From the NCBI GenBank assembly GCA_905182525.1, contig CAJJBV010000003.1, positions 248,001 through 312,000 on the forward strand: DNA of 64,000 bases. The letters are read 5' to 3'. Shown here piece after piece: positions 8,756 to 44,241 of the stretch. This DNA comes from Cryomorphaceae bacterium. GTDB lineage: Bacteria; Bacteroidota; Bacteroidia; Flavobacteriales_D; Parvicellaceae. Both the position numbers and the translations under genes were made by a program. Positions within the stretch are counted from its first letter, which is position 1; every line of letters begins with the position of its first letter. Under the pieces are notes generated by a model, which saw only the letters and a list, made by a program, of their open reading frames with translations, did no database searches and was not told where the DNA came from.

Positions 8756-9139
8756 TTGTACTATAAAGAAGCTTCCGAAGAAACTCCATTAGTTTCTTTA
8801 AATCCCGACAAAGGCGTACTAATAATAGATGGAAATTGCAACTCAGAAGCACCAGATGAATTTTTTAAAGAAATTTCAGGATGGATAGCTTCTTATTCAA
8901 AGAATCCCAAGGACATTACGACTTTAACAATTAATTTAGGCGGAATTAATATCTCCTCTTCAAAATATCTTTTGAATATTATTTACCAATTAGAAGCTCT
9001 CCAAAAAAATGGTTGCAAAGTAAATATTAGATGGGTTTACAATAATGGTGAAGATGGTAATTATGAGCTTGGAAAAGATTATTCTGAAATGGCTTCAGTA
9101 CCTTTTGAATTTATTGAGAACTTTGTTTCCAATATTTAA
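8756..9139 (+). CDS. SiaC-family (DUF1987) regulatory phosphoprotein
   Basis: The 127-residue cytosolic protein begins at a TTG codon (8756): an in-frame TGA lies 9 bp upstream and no suitable ATG exists. It contains ETPLVSLNPDKGVLIIDG, PDEFFKEISGWI and NISSSKYLLNIIYQLE, the usual DUF1987/SiaC layout. In Pseudomonas, SiaC is phosphorylated by SiaB and dephosphorylated by the PP2C phosphatase SiaA to control a diguanylate cyclase; that is family knowledge. No siaB or siaD lies beside it. A SpoIIE/PP2C membrane phosphatase is encoded at 37.0-38.8 kb. The phosphosite region, if conserved, should be around NISSSK (inference). Confidence 0.75.
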   Translation: MYYKEASEETPLVSLNPDKGVLIIDGNCNSEAPDEFFKEISGWIASYSKNPKDITTLTINLGGINISSSKYLLNIIYQLEALQKNGCKVNIRWVYNNGEDGNYELGKDYSEMASVPFEFIENFVSNI

Positions 9140-37019: not shown

Positions 37020-38780
37020 TTAGTCAATCTCGACTCCAAATATTACGATATCGTCAACCTGCTCATAATTCCCCATCCATTCTGCTAGTCTTTCTTCTAG
37101 TTTTCTTTTTTGATTTTCCATGGATTCATTTACAGTTTCAACTAATAATTCTTTGAACTTTTTATACATAAACTTCTTTCCTCTTTCACCTCCAAATTGA
37201 TCCGGATATCCATCGGAAAATGCATATACTTTATCCCCTTTAATCAAGTCTATTTCAAAATTTTCGTAATTATGTTCTTCTTGGTTAAAAGAACCAATAG
37301 CAAATTTATTTGTTTTATATATTTCTAACTCTCCATCTCTTATAAGGTAAACTGGATTATTTGCTCCGGCAAATCTAAGTTTCATTTCCTTACTATTTAT
37401 TGAGCAGAGTGTGATATCCATCCCGTCCCTAATAGAATCATCAGCACTTTTGTTTAAAGCCTCATTTGCATATCTGTTAAGATCATCTAAAATTAGGCCT
37501 GGCTTTGACAATTTATGCTCCTTAAAAGCACTATTTAAGCCGTTAGCCCCCACTAAGCTCATAAAAGCACCTGGCACCCCATGTCCTGTACAATCAACTG
37601 CTGCAAACATAAATTCATTTTTTTGTTTCCCGATCCAGTAAAAGTCTCCTGAAACAATATCTTTTGGTTTAAATAACACAAATGAAGAAGGAAAATATTT
37701 TTTTATTTGTTTTTCTGGCGGAAGTATAGAATCTTGTAATCTTTTAGCATATCTAATACTGGCAGTAACATCTGTATAAAGCTCTTCAATTTCAGCTTTT
37801 TGTTTCACAACCTCTTCTGTTCTTTCTTTAACTTTTTGCTCTAAAATTCTCTCCGTTTCAGCTAATTCATCCTTCATTTTTAGAAGTGCGTGGCCTAATA
37901 CGTCTTCATCACTAAGAGGTTGATATTTATAATCAAAATTACTTTGTCCGATTTCATGAGCAAATTGGGTTGTTTCTGTCAACCCCGTAACCAAGCTATT
38001 CATAGCCTCAGACATTTCTCCAATTTCATCATTACTAGGTTCAATTTGACTTTTTGGGAAAATTCCTTTGCCTAATCCCAAGAGAATTACTTTAAGACTC
38101 TGTACTGGTTTTGTAATACTAAGGGTTGTAAAAATTGCAATAAGAACTGTCCCAAGAACAATAATTATAGAAAAAAATATGATGCTGTTTATTAAATTTG
38201 CAAATCTATTATTAGTCTCTATTTGTTGTTTATCCGCAATTTGTGTTCTAATCTGAGATAAATCGCTGATAGACTTAAGAATAAATTCATAGTTTGCGCT
38301 TATTTCTTCAAACATAAATTGAGCATTAAATGCTAATGCTTCATCTTGGTAACTATCTATATTAATAAATACCTCTCTTACTTCAAAGTTATATGATTCA
38401 ATTAAAGCAAAAACATCTGTATAAATATCATTAAATTCTTCGAGCCCTCCTTCAGAAGAAATCCATAAAGAAGATAATTCTTTAATAGTTTCTAAATCAT
38501 ATAAGATTGTTGAGTCAAGTAAAACTTCTGCTTCTAATTTAAACTGGTCATCAGGCCTAGTTTCTTCAATAACCCATTTTTGCATATAGGTTTGAGTTTT
38601 TGCTAAGTCATCTTTGAGTTGATTAATTACGAAAAGAGAGGGTTGATCAATTTTTAAAAACTTGTCATTAGATTTAATGGCAACATTAACAACGGAAAAT
38701 GTATATAAAAAAACAAATAATAATAATATTACAACTACACTAAACCCTCCACCTATTTTTTTTCCAACTGTAAATCTCAA
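37020..38780 (-). CDS. Membrane sensor protein phosphatase: TM-4HB-TM-HAMP-coiled coil-SpoIIE/PP2C
   Basis: The product has 586 residues. A TTG start at 38780 is assumed; no ATG lies between the previous stop and the first helix. There are two transmembrane helices (~residues 12-33 and ~200-222) flanking a ~165-residue helical periplasmic sensor. A HAMP domain (LSITKPVQSLKVIL ... EIGEMSEAMNSLV), a coiled coil (~310-345) and a C-terminal SpoIIE phosphatase follow. The phosphatase carries the acidic metal ligands in SGDFYWIGK, VDCTGHGVPGAFMS, FSDGYPDQFGG and VDDIVIFGV. It is predicted to dephosphorylate Ser/Thr on a cytosolic partner. It is the third gene of an operon with a YfiR-like protein and a TPR protein. 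Confidence 0.88.
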   Translation of the reverse strand: MRFTVGKKIGGGFSVVVILLLFVFLYTFSVVNVAIKSNDKFLKIDQPSLFVINQLKDDLAKTQTYMQKWVIEETRPDDQFKLEAEVLLDSTILYDLETIKELSSLWISSEGGLEEFNDIYTDVFALIESYNFEVREVFINIDSYQDEALAFNAQFMFEEISANYEFILKSISDLSQIRTQIADKQQIETNNRFANLINSIIFFSIIIVLGTVLIAIFTTLSITKPVQSLKVILLGLGKGIFPKSQIEPSNDEIGEMSEAMNSLVTGLTETTQFAHEIGQSNFDYKYQPLSDEDVLGHALLKMKDELAETERILEQKVKERTEEVVKQKAEIEELYTDVTASIRYAKRLQDSILPPEKQIKKYFPSSFVLFKPKDIVSGDFYWIGKQKNEFMFAAVDCTGHGVPGAFMSLVGANGLNSAFKEHKLSKPGLILDDLNRYANEALNKSADDSIRDGMDITLCSINSKEMKLRFAGANNPVYLIRDGELEIYKTNKFAIGSFNQEEHNYENFEIDLIKGDKVYAFSDGYPDQFGGERGKKFMYKKFKELLVETVNESMENQKRKLEERLAEWMGNYEQVDDIVIFGVEID

Positions 38781-38786
38781 AATTTT

Positions 38787-39719
38787 CTAGTTATTTTCAT
38801 TCACTGGATTAGCAGACTCCAGATCTTTAAGGATATTCATATACTCTACATGTTTTTCCATGTCATTTAAACTGTAATATACAGCTGCAATTCCTTGAAC
38901 TATCGAAACTTCCTTCGGCTTCATTTCATAAACTTTCTTTAAATAAGGAAGAGATTTAGAAAAATAATTAACTGCTTGCTCTTGCATTAAAATAACCATT
39001 TCTAAATCTGCATCAATATCTAGTTCTTCCATGATAATGTCTACTCCTAAATTGTGGAACATAATCCCTAAATTATAATTAGCAGAATATTGATTAGGTT
39101 CAATCACAAGAGATTTATTAAAATAACTGATACAAGAATCTAATAAATCTTTATTAGTATGCTTATCTTTTTCATAACTCATTTTAAATAACATTCCTAT
39201 TCCGTAATAAAAGTCAACATCTTTTTCTGCAAAATCATAATCGGGGTGAGCAATTCTTTTTAATCTTTTATAATTATTGTAATACGAGACCGCATCTTCT
39301 TGATTATTTACAGCAAACTTCTGAAGAATGGTAACTGCGTCATTATAATAATTGGTTGAAATATAGTCTAATGCTTTGATATTTCTTTCAGAATATTTTC
39401 CCTCTACGTCTAAATTCATAGATTTTATAAAACAATCGGCAGCTTTTAATTTTGTCTTAGATCCATATGACTTATTTTCTAAATATTTGAAAATATCAAG
39501 GTTAATAAAGCCACAGACATGCCAAAAATAAGAATCATCATTTTGATCTGGGCATTGAGATAATACAGTATCAATATAACCTATTGCATTTGTATAATTT
39601 TTAGACTGATATTTTTGAAGCAAAAGCATTTTCTCAGGACAGTATTTAGCTTGTGAAAATGATGTCAAAAATATACTTAGCATCAAGAATAAGGACAATA
39701 TTTTATTTAATCCATTCAT
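38787..39719 (-). CDS. Exported TPR-repeat protein
   Basis: The 310-residue protein has a signal peptide (MNGLNKILSLFLMLSIFLTSFSQA) and helical repeats of TPR type, clearest near residues 205-240 (YSANYNLGIMFHNLG) and 250-300 (YFSKSLPYLKKVYEMKPKE). It is probably a periplasmic scaffold. The start overlaps the YfiR-like gene stop by 4 bp (ATGA), and the SpoIIE phosphatase starts 6 bp after its stop, so the three are almost certainly one operon. Confidence 0.78.
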   Translation of the reverse strand: MNGLNKILSLFLMLSIFLTSFSQAKYCPEKMLLLQKYQSKNYTNAIGYIDTVLSQCPDQNDDSYFWHVCGFINLDIFKYLENKSYGSKTKLKAADCFIKSMNLDVEGKYSERNIKALDYISTNYYNDAVTILQKFAVNNQEDAVSYYNNYKRLKRIAHPDYDFAEKDVDFYYGIGMLFKMSYEKDKHTNKDLLDSCISYFNKSLVIEPNQYSANYNLGIMFHNLGVDIIMEELDIDADLEMVILMQEQAVNYFSKSLPYLKKVYEMKPKEVSIVQGIAAVYYSLNDMEKHVEYMNILKDLESANPVNENN

Positions 39720-40252
39720 ATTATTGAATAAGCTAATTTAGTTAAAGTTTGGCCAATCTTAAAATCATTTTTTTCTAATACAGACTTATTAAGTTGAAAT
39801 TTAAGTCTACTTTGAACGTAAACAAAATTAATCATGTTTCCGCTTGAATTAGAAATATCCTTTAACTCTGTAACGAGAAGAGTTTTTTCATTCAAAACTT
39901 TCTTGACATTTGAAATTGCGTTTGATTTTTCTTCGCTGACAAATAATAAGTGACAGTCGGTAATATCTGATGTAGATTCATAAAAATCAAATACAATATT
40001 TTGACTGCCAGTCATTTTACCTTTAAAATTCGTGTTAAGTTGGTTATATAAGTCTTTACTGCCATATATTCCAATGGTAAAATCACCCGTAGTATGTGCG
40101 GTTGGCCAATAAACTTTTTTAGCAAATGAATAAAGATAAATACCCTGTAATTTCATTCGAGCTGCTTTTCCAGCGTCTTGAGAATAAAACATAATGCTCG
40201 GAACTAGCATTAAAATACTTACAATAAATGATATATGTTTTTTATTCCCCAA
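39716..40252 (-). CDS. YfiR/HmsC-like (DUF4154) periplasmic protein
   Basis: The 178-residue protein has a signal-peptide-like N-terminus and the DUF4154 fold: GIYLYSFAKKVYWP near residue 38, FTIGIYGSKDLYNQL, CHLLFVSEEKS and the closing VQSRLKFQLNKSVLEKNDF. In Pseudomonas, YfiR is a periplasmic repressor of the diguanylate cyclase YfiN; here the partner gene is a phosphatase instead. The frame begins with TTG at 40252, preceded directly by TAG, so either TTG is used or an ATG was lost by frameshift. Confidence 0.82.
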   Translation of the reverse strand: MGNKKHISFIVSILMLVPSIMFYSQDAGKAARMKLQGIYLYSFAKKVYWPTAHTTGDFTIGIYGSKDLYNQLNTNFKGKMTGSQNIVFDFYESTSDITDCHLLFVSEEKSNAISNVKKVLNEKTLLVTELKDISNSSGNMINFVYVQSRLKFQLNKSVLEKNDFKIGQTLTKLAYSII

Positions 40253-40303: not shown

Positions 40304-40712
40304 TTAATAATGTTTGATTTTGTTTTTCATGTATTTATCTCTGCTTTTGAAAGCTTTATTTCTAAGATTAACTTTATCATATCTGTTTCGAGCTGCCATC
40401 TTTCTATGCTCCATTGTAAAGCTATCTTTATCTACACCACTTTGCTTATAGTTTACTTTCCCAAGCCTCTTAAAAGGGTCATCATATAATCCAATTAACC
40501 CATTATTTTTTTTGATGTTAGAGAAGGAATCTTTTTGTTTTTTTGACAAATATGATTTAGCTGAATATAAAAGTCCTCTTTTATTATTTTTTTTTATTTT
40601 ATTACTAGCTTTTTTTTACAGTAAAAGGGTCTCTGTATTGAGAAATGATATTTTGTTTTCCAGAAAAAAAAAACAAAAAGAAGATGAATATGTAAAATAT
40701 TCTTGAACTCAT
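40304..40712 (-). pseudogene. Small exported basic protein, frameshifted in an A8 tract
   Basis: ATG 40712 opens a signal peptide (MSSRIFYIFIFFLFFFSGKQ) and reads QYRDPFTVKKS before a stop. Removing one A from the eight-A tract (T8 on the plus strand, 40610-40617) continues as KIKKNNKRGLLYSAKSY into the frame ending at 40304 (KRLGKVNYKQSGVDKDSFTM ... NKIKHY). The span of 409 bp equals 3x136+1. The mature part is small, very basic and unlike any family I recognise. It lies 9 bp downstream of ferritin on the same strand. Confidence 0.55.
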
Positions 40713-40721
40713 ATTAAGTAA

Positions 40722-41228
40722 TTATAGTTGCTCTTCTTGTGGCATTTCTTTTATCAAATCTCTGTCAAAAAGATACAGCCCCGCCTTGTCTTTACCAATC
40801 ATGTTAAGTCTATCAATAATAGTTCTAGCTAAAGCTTCTTCCTCAAGCTGTTCGGCAACATACCACTGCATAAAATTATGTGTTGTAAAGTCTCTTTCAT
40901 CTAAGCAAAGCCCTACAATATTATTAATGCTTTCCGTAACATTTAATTCATGCTCTAATAAAGATTCAAATACGTGAGTCAACGACTTAAAAGTTTCCGG
41001 GGGTTGTATTAAAGCAGGAATTAATGCATTCCCACCTCTTTCATTTATGAATTTTATTAGTTTTAACATGTGTTGCCTTTCTTCATCGCTATGCTGATAT
41101 AGGAAAGATGAGGAGCCACTTAGCCCTTTAGTTTCAGTCCAAGAAGCCATAGATAAATAAAATTGTGAAGATGAAGCTTCTAGTTCTATTTGCTTATTTA
41201 AAGCTTTTTCAATTACAGGTTTTAACAT
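40722..41228 (-). CDS. Bacterial ferritin (non-heme)
   Basis: The 168-residue four-helix protein has ferroxidase ligands in KQIELEASSSQFYL (Glu ~17), HSDEERQHMLKLIKF (EExxH, ~residues 49-53) and WYVAEQLEEEALA (QxxEE). Length and order match FtnA. It stores iron as a ferric mineral in the cytosol. The start is the ATG at 41228. Confidence 0.93.
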   Translation of the reverse strand: MLKPVIEKALNKQIELEASSSQFYLSMASWTETKGLSGSSSFLYQHSDEERQHMLKLIKFINERGGNALIPALIQPPETFKSLTHVFESLLEHELNVTESINNIVGLCLDERDFTTHNFMQWYVAEQLEEEALARTIIDRLNMIGKDKAGLYLFDRDLIKEMPQEEQL

Positions 41229-41365: not shown

Positions 41366-44241
41366 ATGGTGCTATTTACAAAAAGTATTAGAAATTTATT
41401 TTTTCTTATTTTAATTACTCGTGCTTTGGTACTCGAAACATTTTCCCAAACTGTTATTAATGGTAAAATTCTTGATCAAGAAACTAATGAGGAATTAATT
41501 GGGGCATCTGTTAAAATTATAAATTCAAACTATGGTTGTATTACTGACTTTAATGGCGGGTTCATCATTAAAACAAATACTCCTTTGCCTTTCGATATTG
41601 AAGTTTCTTACATTGGTTATGAGTCTAAAACTATCAATTTAAATAGTGCTAAATTTCTAAAAATCAACTTAGAAAGTAAAGATTTACAGCTAAAAGCTGT
41701 TGAAGTTATAAGCGGTATTAGTAAAAAACTTAAAGAATCTCCTTTAAGTATCGAAACTATGGATATTAACGACATCAAGCAAACCTCAGCAACCAACTTT
41801 TATGAGGGACTTAGCCATATGAAAGGGGTAGATATGACCTCTGCTAGTTTAGGTTTTAGAGTTATTAATACCAGGGGATTTAACAGTACTTCTCCAGTAA
41901 GATCTTTACAAATAATAGATGGTGTTGACAACGCTTCACCGGGATTAAATTTTGCTTTAGGAAATTTTTTAGGTGCTTCTGAACTAGATTTAATGAAAGT
42001 AGAAATAATTTCAGGTGCTAGCTCTGCTTTTTACGGTCCCAATGCTTTTAATGGGGTAATAAGTATGGAAACCAAAAACCCTTTTTTATTTCCTGGGTTT
42101 TCAGCATCGGTAAAATTGGGGGAGCGAAACTTAAACGAGTACGCGTATGAGGTATGCTAAAGTTTTAAAGGATAAAAAAGGAAAAGATAGGTTCGCTTAT
42201 AAGTTTAACTATTTACTACATGAATGCCGACGATTGGGTTGCCGATAATTCAAACAGTGTTGCTGAATCTTGAGACTGATGAAAATAATCCTGGAGGGTA
42301 TGATGCTAGTAAATAGGTATGGAGATGAAAATCTAAACTCCACTTCAAACAAATGACTACTGGTTTCACGCAAGGTGAAATTGATTTAGACAGTAGATTT
42401 AAATATCCTGGGCTTAGGAAATGGCATAGAAAAGGATATTGGGAAAAAGATATAGTAGACTACAAAACTGAAAACTTAAAAACAAGCGCTAGGTTTTCAT
42501 TACTTATTTAAAATTCGATGGATTTAGTTTTCATGTCTAGTAATTTCTGCAACAGGAACAACTGTTTATCAAGGTGACAACCGTTTTAGCTTAAAAGACA
42601 TACTTTTTTTTCAAAATAAGATAGAACTTAAAAAAGAAAATGACTTTTTTATAGAGACTATATCAACTCATGAAGATGCAGGAAATAGTTATGATGCTGT
42701 TTTAACTGCTTTCATAATTCAAGATGCCGCTGCTTCAGATGGAAGATGTTCATGAACTTTATCAAAATAGCTGGCAAGATAATATTACGACAAAGTAAGA
42801 GCTTAGATCCTACTGTTGTCAATGGCAAGCCTGCATTTGATCCGTAACCCAGACTCCTATCCAGTAATGGAATATGTTTAATGCACTTGCATTTCCAATG
42901 ACTTCATTAGCAAATTGGCATCGAACAAGTGCAGCTTTTGCAAATAGTCTGCAACCACTCCAACAACTCTTGATTTTTTTGAGCTTGGCACAGCAAGATT
43001 TGATTCTCTTAAAAACGAATTATTTCAAGCCTCTGTTATTGATGGCGGTTCAAAAATTGTTGATAAATCTTCTCTATATCATTTTCATGCTGAAAAAATT
43101 TTTAATTCCGATTTTGGAAAATAACTATAGGCGGGAACAGCAGAGTTTACACTCCAAAATCTAATGGTTCCTTATTTAGTGATACTAACAATATAAAAAT
43201 TGTCAAATGTTGAAGGGGGTATTTATGGTGGGTTTGAAAAAAAATTATTGTCTGATCAATTAATTTTTAAAAGTTCTGTAAGAGTTGATAAAAATCAAAA
43301 TTTTGATTTATCCTACCCAAGCAATTTCTGGTATTTATTAAATCTAAATGAAAATCACTACTGTTAGGTCAACATTTACTTCTGCAATTAGAAATCCAAC
43401 ATTACTAAATCAATACATGTATTACAATGTAGGAAGAGCCAAGTTAGTTGGGAATATTACTGGTTATGAAATCTTGTACACTTTAGAATCAGTTATATGC
43501 TGCTCTAATTCTGGAAAAGTACAAGATTCATTGGTGAGTTTTAGACTTGATCCTATAAAGCCCGAAGAAGTTAAAGTGTTTGGAATTTGGGTACAGAGGG
43601 GCGTTAATATTAATAGATTTTATATTGATGCTAACTATTATTTTAATCTGGTATACCAACTTTATTGGTTTTGTTGTAGGTGCAGATTTATCTGTTGATC
43701 CTTATGAGTATTTTAATAAATGATGTTTACAGAGTTGCAACCAATTCCAATAAATCTATAACTACCCAAGGGTTTCTGCAATTGGTTAAATTATTATTTA
43801 AATAATAATTTACATTAACGGAAATTACTCTTGGAATAAATTAAATAAACAAATTGATGACCCAATAATTCCTTCTTATAATACCCCTGAACATAAATTT
43901 AATATTGGGGTTTCAGGAAAAGATATTAATTTTAATAACCTTAAAAACATAGGGTTTAATATAAATTATAAATGGATAGAGGGATTTATTTTTGAAGGCT
44001 CTCCCACAATTTACTGGTCAAGTTCCTACTTATGGGCTTTTGGACTTGCAGAGTAACAAAGTCTCTTGCAAGCCTTTCTGTTAAGTTAGGGGGCTCTAAT
44101 ATTTTAAACAATAAAGTTCTTCAGGTCTACGGTGGCCCATACATTGGCAGGATGGCTCTATTTATCTCTTTTACTAGATATTTAAAGCCTAAATCCTTTT
44201 CTAGGAATAATAGTGTTATTTTTTTTGTAAATTGTACTTAA
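41366..44241 (+). pseudogene. TonB-dependent receptor, disrupted by many frameshifts
   Basis: The first 265 codons (41366-42160) are intact: signal peptide, carboxypeptidase-regulatory-like domain (VINGKILDQETNEELIGASV) and plug (GLSHMKGVDMTSASLGFRV, NTRGFNSTSPVRSLQIIDG). Beyond 42145 the barrel is recognisable only in alternating frames: MRYAKVLKDKKGKDRFAYKF, NADDWVADNSN, ETDENNPGGYDA, NRYGDENLN, RSTFTSAIRNPTLLNQYMYY, NVGRAKLVGNITGYE, QVPTYGLL and LGGSNILNNKVLQVYGGPYI. At least four single-base insertions fall within 42140-42320 alone. No complete frame survives. The gene precedes a T9SS esterase-like gene by ~20 bp. It is either a genuine dead gene or a very poorly sequenced stretch. Confidence 0.8.

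Follow-up and report, generated by a model that had tools for sequence, protein, structure and literature searches.

What does a YfiR-like protein regulate when it is encoded next to a protein phosphatase? In the biofilm pathways of proteobacteria, where it has been studied, YfiR represses a diguanylate cyclase and blocks synthesis of the signal molecule cyclic di-GMP. The question is raised by a 64,000-nucleotide stretch of contig CAJJBV010000003.1 (positions 248,001 to 312,000, forward strand) from the Cryomorphaceae bacterium assembly GCA_905182525.1 (hereafter, the window), in which three closely packed genes on the minus strand (37020-40252) encode, in this order, a YfiR-like periplasmic protein, an exported TPR (tetratricopeptide repeat) protein and a membrane phosphatase. 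Here, in a marine flavobacterium and many of its relatives, an envelope sensor known from other systems appears to have been given a new output, the control of protein dephosphorylation. We consider it probable that this triplet is an envelope-to-cytoplasm cassette, in which the YfiR-like and TPR proteins would signal through the sensor of the phosphatase to its SiaA-type catalytic domain and from there to SiaC. All statements on regulation are drawn from gene order, domain identity and phylogeny. No paper describing the triplet or linking YfiR to a phosphatase was found in the literature covered, which did not include subscription papers.

The yfiR-like gene (39716..40252, minus strand; 178 aa with an N-terminal hydrophobic signal segment) overlaps the TPR gene (38787..39719, minus strand; 310 aa) by 4 bp (39716-39719), and a gap of 6 bp (38781-38786) separates the latter from the phosphatase gene (37020..38780, minus strand; 586 aa). 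The TTG starts of the yfiR-like and phosphatase genes result from a mechanical choice of open reading frames and are predicted only. The first-pass annotation, made from the DNA alone, had described this arrangement with the same coordinates and spacing, which hold, and had assigned the products as a DUF4154 protein, an exported TPR protein and a HAMP-containing SpoIIE phosphatase with two transmembrane helices, in agreement with Pfam searches, structure modeling and homologs. All three genes are intact, and several neighboring genes in the window look frame-broken, which may reflect assembly error; the relatives are mostly metagenome assemblies, and the window genome is probably one as well.

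The genes of the triplet are consecutive and co-directional in 95 of the 95 loci with intact ends, from the same GTDB family (Parvicellaceae), other families of the order and other Bacteroidota, so that chance adjacency can be rejected. Among 100 loci encoding both the TPR and the sensor protein, a YfiR gene is located immediately upstream in 95, and the remaining five are cut by contig ends. The median distances are -4 bp between the yfiR-like and TPR genes and 11 bp between the TPR and phosphatase genes. The first-pass annotation had staked its proposal on conservation of the triplet among relatives, and the triplet is retained in every assessable locus. Within the family, DUF4154 is present in 29 of 39 genomes, with the triplet order kept wherever contigs permit. 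A search of the order with the sensor alignment yielded matches in 153 of its 399 genomes, which belong to 49 of the 70 genera; 54 of the 55 sensor loci outside the family show the YfiR-TPR-phosphatase row, and one is cut by a contig end. Named records include metagenome-assembled genomes of Crocinitomicaceae and Salibacteraceae. The presence of YfiR and that of the sensor agree in 37 of the 39 family genomes; in the two that disagree, the sensor gene lies at a contig end. Across a sample of the phylum, five of 392 genomes contained the full sensor, and all five have YfiR, which is found in 41 of the 392 overall (P about 1e-5, ignoring relatedness).

The YfiR-like protein matches the YfiR/HmsC-like family PF13689 (DUF4154; E 5.5e-26, 91.8 bits versus a cutoff of 24.9). 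Its score against the NCBIfam model YfiR_like_TOL0243 (78 bits) is below the cutoff of 125, and that against the equivalog sequest_YfiR (NF053586) is 16.8 bits versus a cutoff of 85. The assignment rests on Pfam because a YfiR profile search against PDB chain sequences did not recover the solved YfiR structures. The protein contains a single cysteine and thus no disulfide or redox cysteine pairs. The Pfam match of the TPR protein is below threshold (best E 0.0025); an AlphaFold2 model (pLDDT, the predicted local distance difference test score, 90.9) is all helical and finds TPR solenoids as its best PDB matches in Foldseek, so that the predicted structure confirms the middle gene product as a TPR protein.

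The phosphatase consists of two transmembrane helices around a periplasmic sensor (residues about 30-193; 38202..38693, minus strand), followed by a HAMP domain (residues 222-268; 37977..38117, minus strand), a highly conserved helical linker and the PP2C domain (Pfam residues 389-584; 37029..37616, minus strand). The two hydrophobic segments (19-residue scans starting at residues 3-19 and 191-208) enclose about 165 residues, the sensor size originally estimated. The match to HAMP (PF00672) is below threshold in the window protein (15 bits) and was obtained for 22 of 26 homologs. The modeled N-terminal region is all helical (helices 5-71, 79-103, 113-135 and 147-237; pLDDT about 82-96). The catalytic domain matches SpoIIE (PF07228; E 2.9e-18) and was aligned to the PP2C domain of SiaA; the metal-ligand aspartates D379, D396, D455, D523 and D577, the first located just ahead of the Pfam match, are invariant among 27 homologs. 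The best curated model is SiaA (NF038263; E 9e-65), which aligns with the C-terminal half only. The PP2C domain of Pseudomonas aeruginosa SiaA (6k4e) is both the best PDB match of the structural model (Foldseek E 2.8e-18, TM-score 0.89 on the target) and the best sequence match among solved structures (phmmer E 1.6e-37). Sequence and model comparisons both identify the catalytic domain as a SiaA-type PP2C domain. Only one other SpoIIE-type protein is encoded in the genome, scoring 25 bits against the SiaA model, and the triplet phosphatase is the only one of the SiaA type. The proposal that the output here is a PP2C-type phosphatase in place of a diguanylate cyclase is borne out, all the more as no GGDEF domain was detected in the window genome (96% complete) and the 39 family genomes together gave a single real hit.

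The biochemistry of SiaA, SiaB and SiaC has been characterized in P. aeruginosa (PMC7647112, PMC8457831), where unphosphorylated SiaC binds and activates SiaD, and phosphorylation of T68 prevents this (PMC8457831). The window genome encodes an adjacent SiaB-SiaC pair, of which SiaB matches its family with 158 bits (cutoff 85) and SiaC matches PF09345 (E 1e-38) and contains the phosphosite LEYFNTSSSK, to be compared with LLYLNTSSIK in P. aeruginosa (PMC7647112); neither protein reaches its P. aeruginosa equivalog cutoff. All 39 family genomes encode SiaB and SiaC. A second SiaB is encoded in the genome, and a second SiaC-like protein (DUF1987) in the window itself (8756..9139, plus strand; PF09345 E 2e-27; NF038265 65 bits, cutoff 150). 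The phosphosite of this second SiaC, NISSSK, has isoleucine in place of the phospho-accepting threonine of the other SiaC (NTSSSK) and of P. aeruginosa SiaC; this protein may take part in the same partner switch, perhaps as a variant that escapes inactivation by SiaB.

On this basis, we propose that the YfiR-like and TPR proteins would act on the helical sensor from within the periplasm and set its state, with the YfiR-like protein presumably binding to the sensor and the TPR protein serving as an adaptor or co-sensor. The HAMP domain and the conserved linker would relay this state to the PP2C domain, which would set the phosphorylation of SiaC, its likely substrate, against the SiaB kinase, the gene of which lies at another place in the genome; SiaC would then switch partners. 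The sign of regulation could be repression, by analogy with YfiN. The first-pass annotation had tentatively carried YfiN-type repression over to the phosphatase, but this cannot simply be copied because the sensor is all helical and unrelated to CHASE8. Its suggestion of control over Ser/Thr dephosphorylation stands in that the enzyme is a PP2C-type phosphatase, but not as a general activity: the evidence points to one partner-switch target, SiaC.

The partners of YfiR elsewhere in Bacteroidota help to identify the component of the cassette to which it belongs. Outside the triplet group, the immediate neighbor of YfiR is mostly a histidine kinase with a HAMP domain, or YfiR and a kinase form one protein; CHASE8 was matched in seven of the eight scanned YfiR-adjacent kinases, in one of these below the cutoff. 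The same helical sensor as in the triplet occurs without the phosphatase in relatives from Cytophagales and Bacteroidales (Marivirga, Pseudochryseolinea, Fulvivirga and others), where YfiR is followed directly by a sensor-HAMP-GAF(-PAS) protein and there is no TPR gene. All phosphatase-type loci contain the TPR gene, and no GAF-PAS-type locus does. In a tree of 84 YfiR domains, a branch with support of 99/98 sets apart the YfiRs that are fused to kinases or associated with CHASE8 kinases (plus two unassigned); on its other side are those linked to the helical sensor, along with a few of unknown partner. YfiR tracks the sensor across two different outputs, and TPR goes with the phosphatase output. 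Several GAF-type sensor loci lack an adjacent YfiR (for example, L184-L186, L204 and L205), and the genomes of L204 and L205 carry YfiR elsewhere. At L113, L175, L180, L190 and L196, YfiR precedes a sensor-HAMP-GAF(-PAS) membrane protein in which no enzymatic output domain is recognizable. At L078 and L137-L141, DUF4154 and a membrane histidine kinase form one polypeptide, usually encoded just downstream of what looks like an outer-membrane receptor gene (product of about 660-900 aa).

Several observations weigh against the proposed cassette. Residue covariation between YfiR and the sensor did not exceed a within-cluster permutation null (z 0.5; 85 sequences, an underpowered set), with values for control pairs that were as high or higher, and offered no support at the level of contacts. 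The sensor is not homologous to the YfiN-type (CHASE8) sensors: comparison with the CHASE8 sensors of YfiR-linked kinases using hhalign gave a probability of 1.2%, and no Pfam sensor family was matched in any of the 26 homologs, so that a CHASE8-like sensor was rejected. The phosphatase scores 219 bits versus the cutoff of 700 for the full-length SiaA equivalog, its N-terminal half being different, and has valine at the position of SiaA R652, a modeled phosphate contact (PMC7647112). The SiaB-SiaC pair lies outside the triplet operon, on contig C6, with the triplet on C3. Finally, the four genomes of genus g2 encode SiaB and SiaC without the triplet, and therefore SiaB and SiaC do not require it. 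The missing arginine, the separate location of SiaB-SiaC in the window genome and their occurrence without the triplet in g2 would fit a scheme in which YfiR and TPR do regulate the phosphatase, with another STAS/anti-sigma antagonist or a housekeeping phosphoprotein, and not SiaC, as its substrate. We regard this as rather unlikely, given that this is the sole SiaA-type catalytic domain in a genome with SiaB and SiaC, that its closest solved structure is SiaA, and that the phosphatase inside the SiaB-SiaC group of genus g9 likewise lacks the arginine (GREQIDD), so that its absence is not telling. That no covariation between YfiR and the sensor was detected, along with the frequent presence of a ferritin gene upstream, could also be taken to mean that YfiR and TPR share the operon but have a role in the envelope or one related to iron and do not regulate the phosphatase. 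This appears improbable because YfiR tracks the sensor type and not the neighborhood, the same sensor with a GAF-PAS output again occurring beside YfiR, there without TPR, and because most of the other surveyed YfiRs of Bacteroidota adjoin or are fused to membrane histidine kinases. The classical wiring, in which YfiR represses a diguanylate cyclase encoded elsewhere and the phosphatase is incidental, has the DUF4154 family membership in its favor. In a genome without GGDEF, however, YfiR cannot act through a diguanylate cyclase, and we reject this wiring for the window genome as extremely improbable, unless a GGDEF gene hides in the missing few percent.

A further possibility extends the proposed cassette and is not an exclusive alternative to it. 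In 30 loci, from the same family and from families f2, f59 and f65, a PF00211 class III nucleotide (adenylate/guanylate) cyclase that ends in an HD domain is encoded directly after the phosphatase (for example, L072:3830-5374, L063:920-4777 and L073:6752-10666) and is a candidate downstream target in these relatives. The HD domain was called by Pfam in a long version of this protein. The long version also contains a Reg_prop/Y_Y_Y propeller. Two g9 genomes have a SiaB-SpoIIE-SiaC group within about 12 kb of sequence that also includes the triplet and the cyclase. Group-wide, dephosphorylated SiaC, or the phosphatase itself, might regulate the cyclase-HD protein in place of SiaD, the window species having lost the cyclase and kept a reduced system. 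Against this, the cyclase is not adjacent in f3 loci, is unlinked in genus g8, occurs without the triplet in g2 and is absent from the window genome, where no class III cyclase was found anywhere; a cyclase remnant downstream of the triplet was sought with tblastn and rejected (best E 0.34). We hold this extension as a tentative one, and with slightly more reserve the complete pathway that it implies for Flavobacteriales, which would run without a histidine kinase or cyclic di-GMP from YfiR and TPR through the SiaA-type phosphatase and SiaB/SiaC to the adjacent class III cyclase-HD protein, with the cyclase lost in the window lineage. The SpoIIE phosphatase encoded between SiaB and SiaC has a TPR-like N-terminal part (L073:3055-4992, L074:14578-16560); in this protein, TPR is apparently fused to the phosphatase and not separately encoded.

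The cassette combines features of two P. aeruginosa systems, the endpoints of which are both missing from the window genome. Like SiaABC(D), it includes a membrane phosphatase with two transmembrane helices and a PP2C domain with all metal-ligand aspartates, in a genome with the SiaB kinase and a SiaC with the NTSS phosphosite; unlike SiaABC(D), it has a different sensor and yfiR and TPR genes in the operon, SiaB and SiaC are encoded elsewhere (near the triplet only in g9), and there is no SiaD/GGDEF protein. As in YfiBNR (PMC3838380, PMC4655355), a periplasmic DUF4154 protein is encoded beside a HAMP-containing membrane signaling protein with two transmembrane helices, but the output is a phosphatase and not GGDEF, the sensor is not CHASE8, a TPR protein is among the neighbors, and the YfiR-like protein has one cysteine and no disulfide pairs. 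An OmpA-like (YfiB) domain was detected in none of the seven proteins scanned from the triplet and its surroundings and was not sought genome-wide. The YfiR-CHASE8/HAMP histidine kinases of Bacteroidota share with the triplet a YfiR-like protein encoded immediately upstream of a HAMP sensor protein with two transmembrane helices and differ in the CHASE8 sensor, the histidine kinase output and the separate YfiR branch. The rewiring is not as singular as initially suggested, since YfiR in Bacteroidota is mostly found beside or fused to histidine kinases and a diguanylate cyclase output is not the rule in this phylum. What distinguishes the triplet is the stable association of YfiR with a protein phosphatase by way of an unrelated sensor, in a group that has essentially no cyclic di-GMP enzymes. 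Together, these associations suggest that YfiR serves as an interchangeable module for envelope input, which can be combined with kinases, phosphatases or GAF-PAS proteins. The cassette is an input candidate for the widespread, little-studied SiaB and SiaC proteins of Bacteroidota and makes testable both an envelope signal route to partner switching in Flavobacteriales and whether such switches drive cAMP or cGMP synthesis.

Upstream of the triplet, the window contains a conserved ferritin gene (40722..41228, minus strand; PF00210 E 2.5e-37). In 73 of 100 triplet loci, the sequence retrieved includes a ferritin gene, mostly just upstream and on the same strand (as seen in L230-L285), and an iron or oxidative link of the cassette is possible. 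The interval between ferritin and the triplet contains a gene for a small conserved exported basic protein (40304..40549, minus strand, or 40304-40660 as split over two frames; about 121-141 aa in relatives, 131-133 aa in the same genus), the frame of which is broken in the window: tblastn with the relatives matches two different frames at 40.3-40.7 kb. On the other side of the ferritin gene, a TonB-type receptor gene (41366-43700, plus strand), the product of which is about 945-968 aa in relatives, is represented only by short open reading frames of 264, 96 and 116 aa and appears to be a broken gene or to contain assembly indels.

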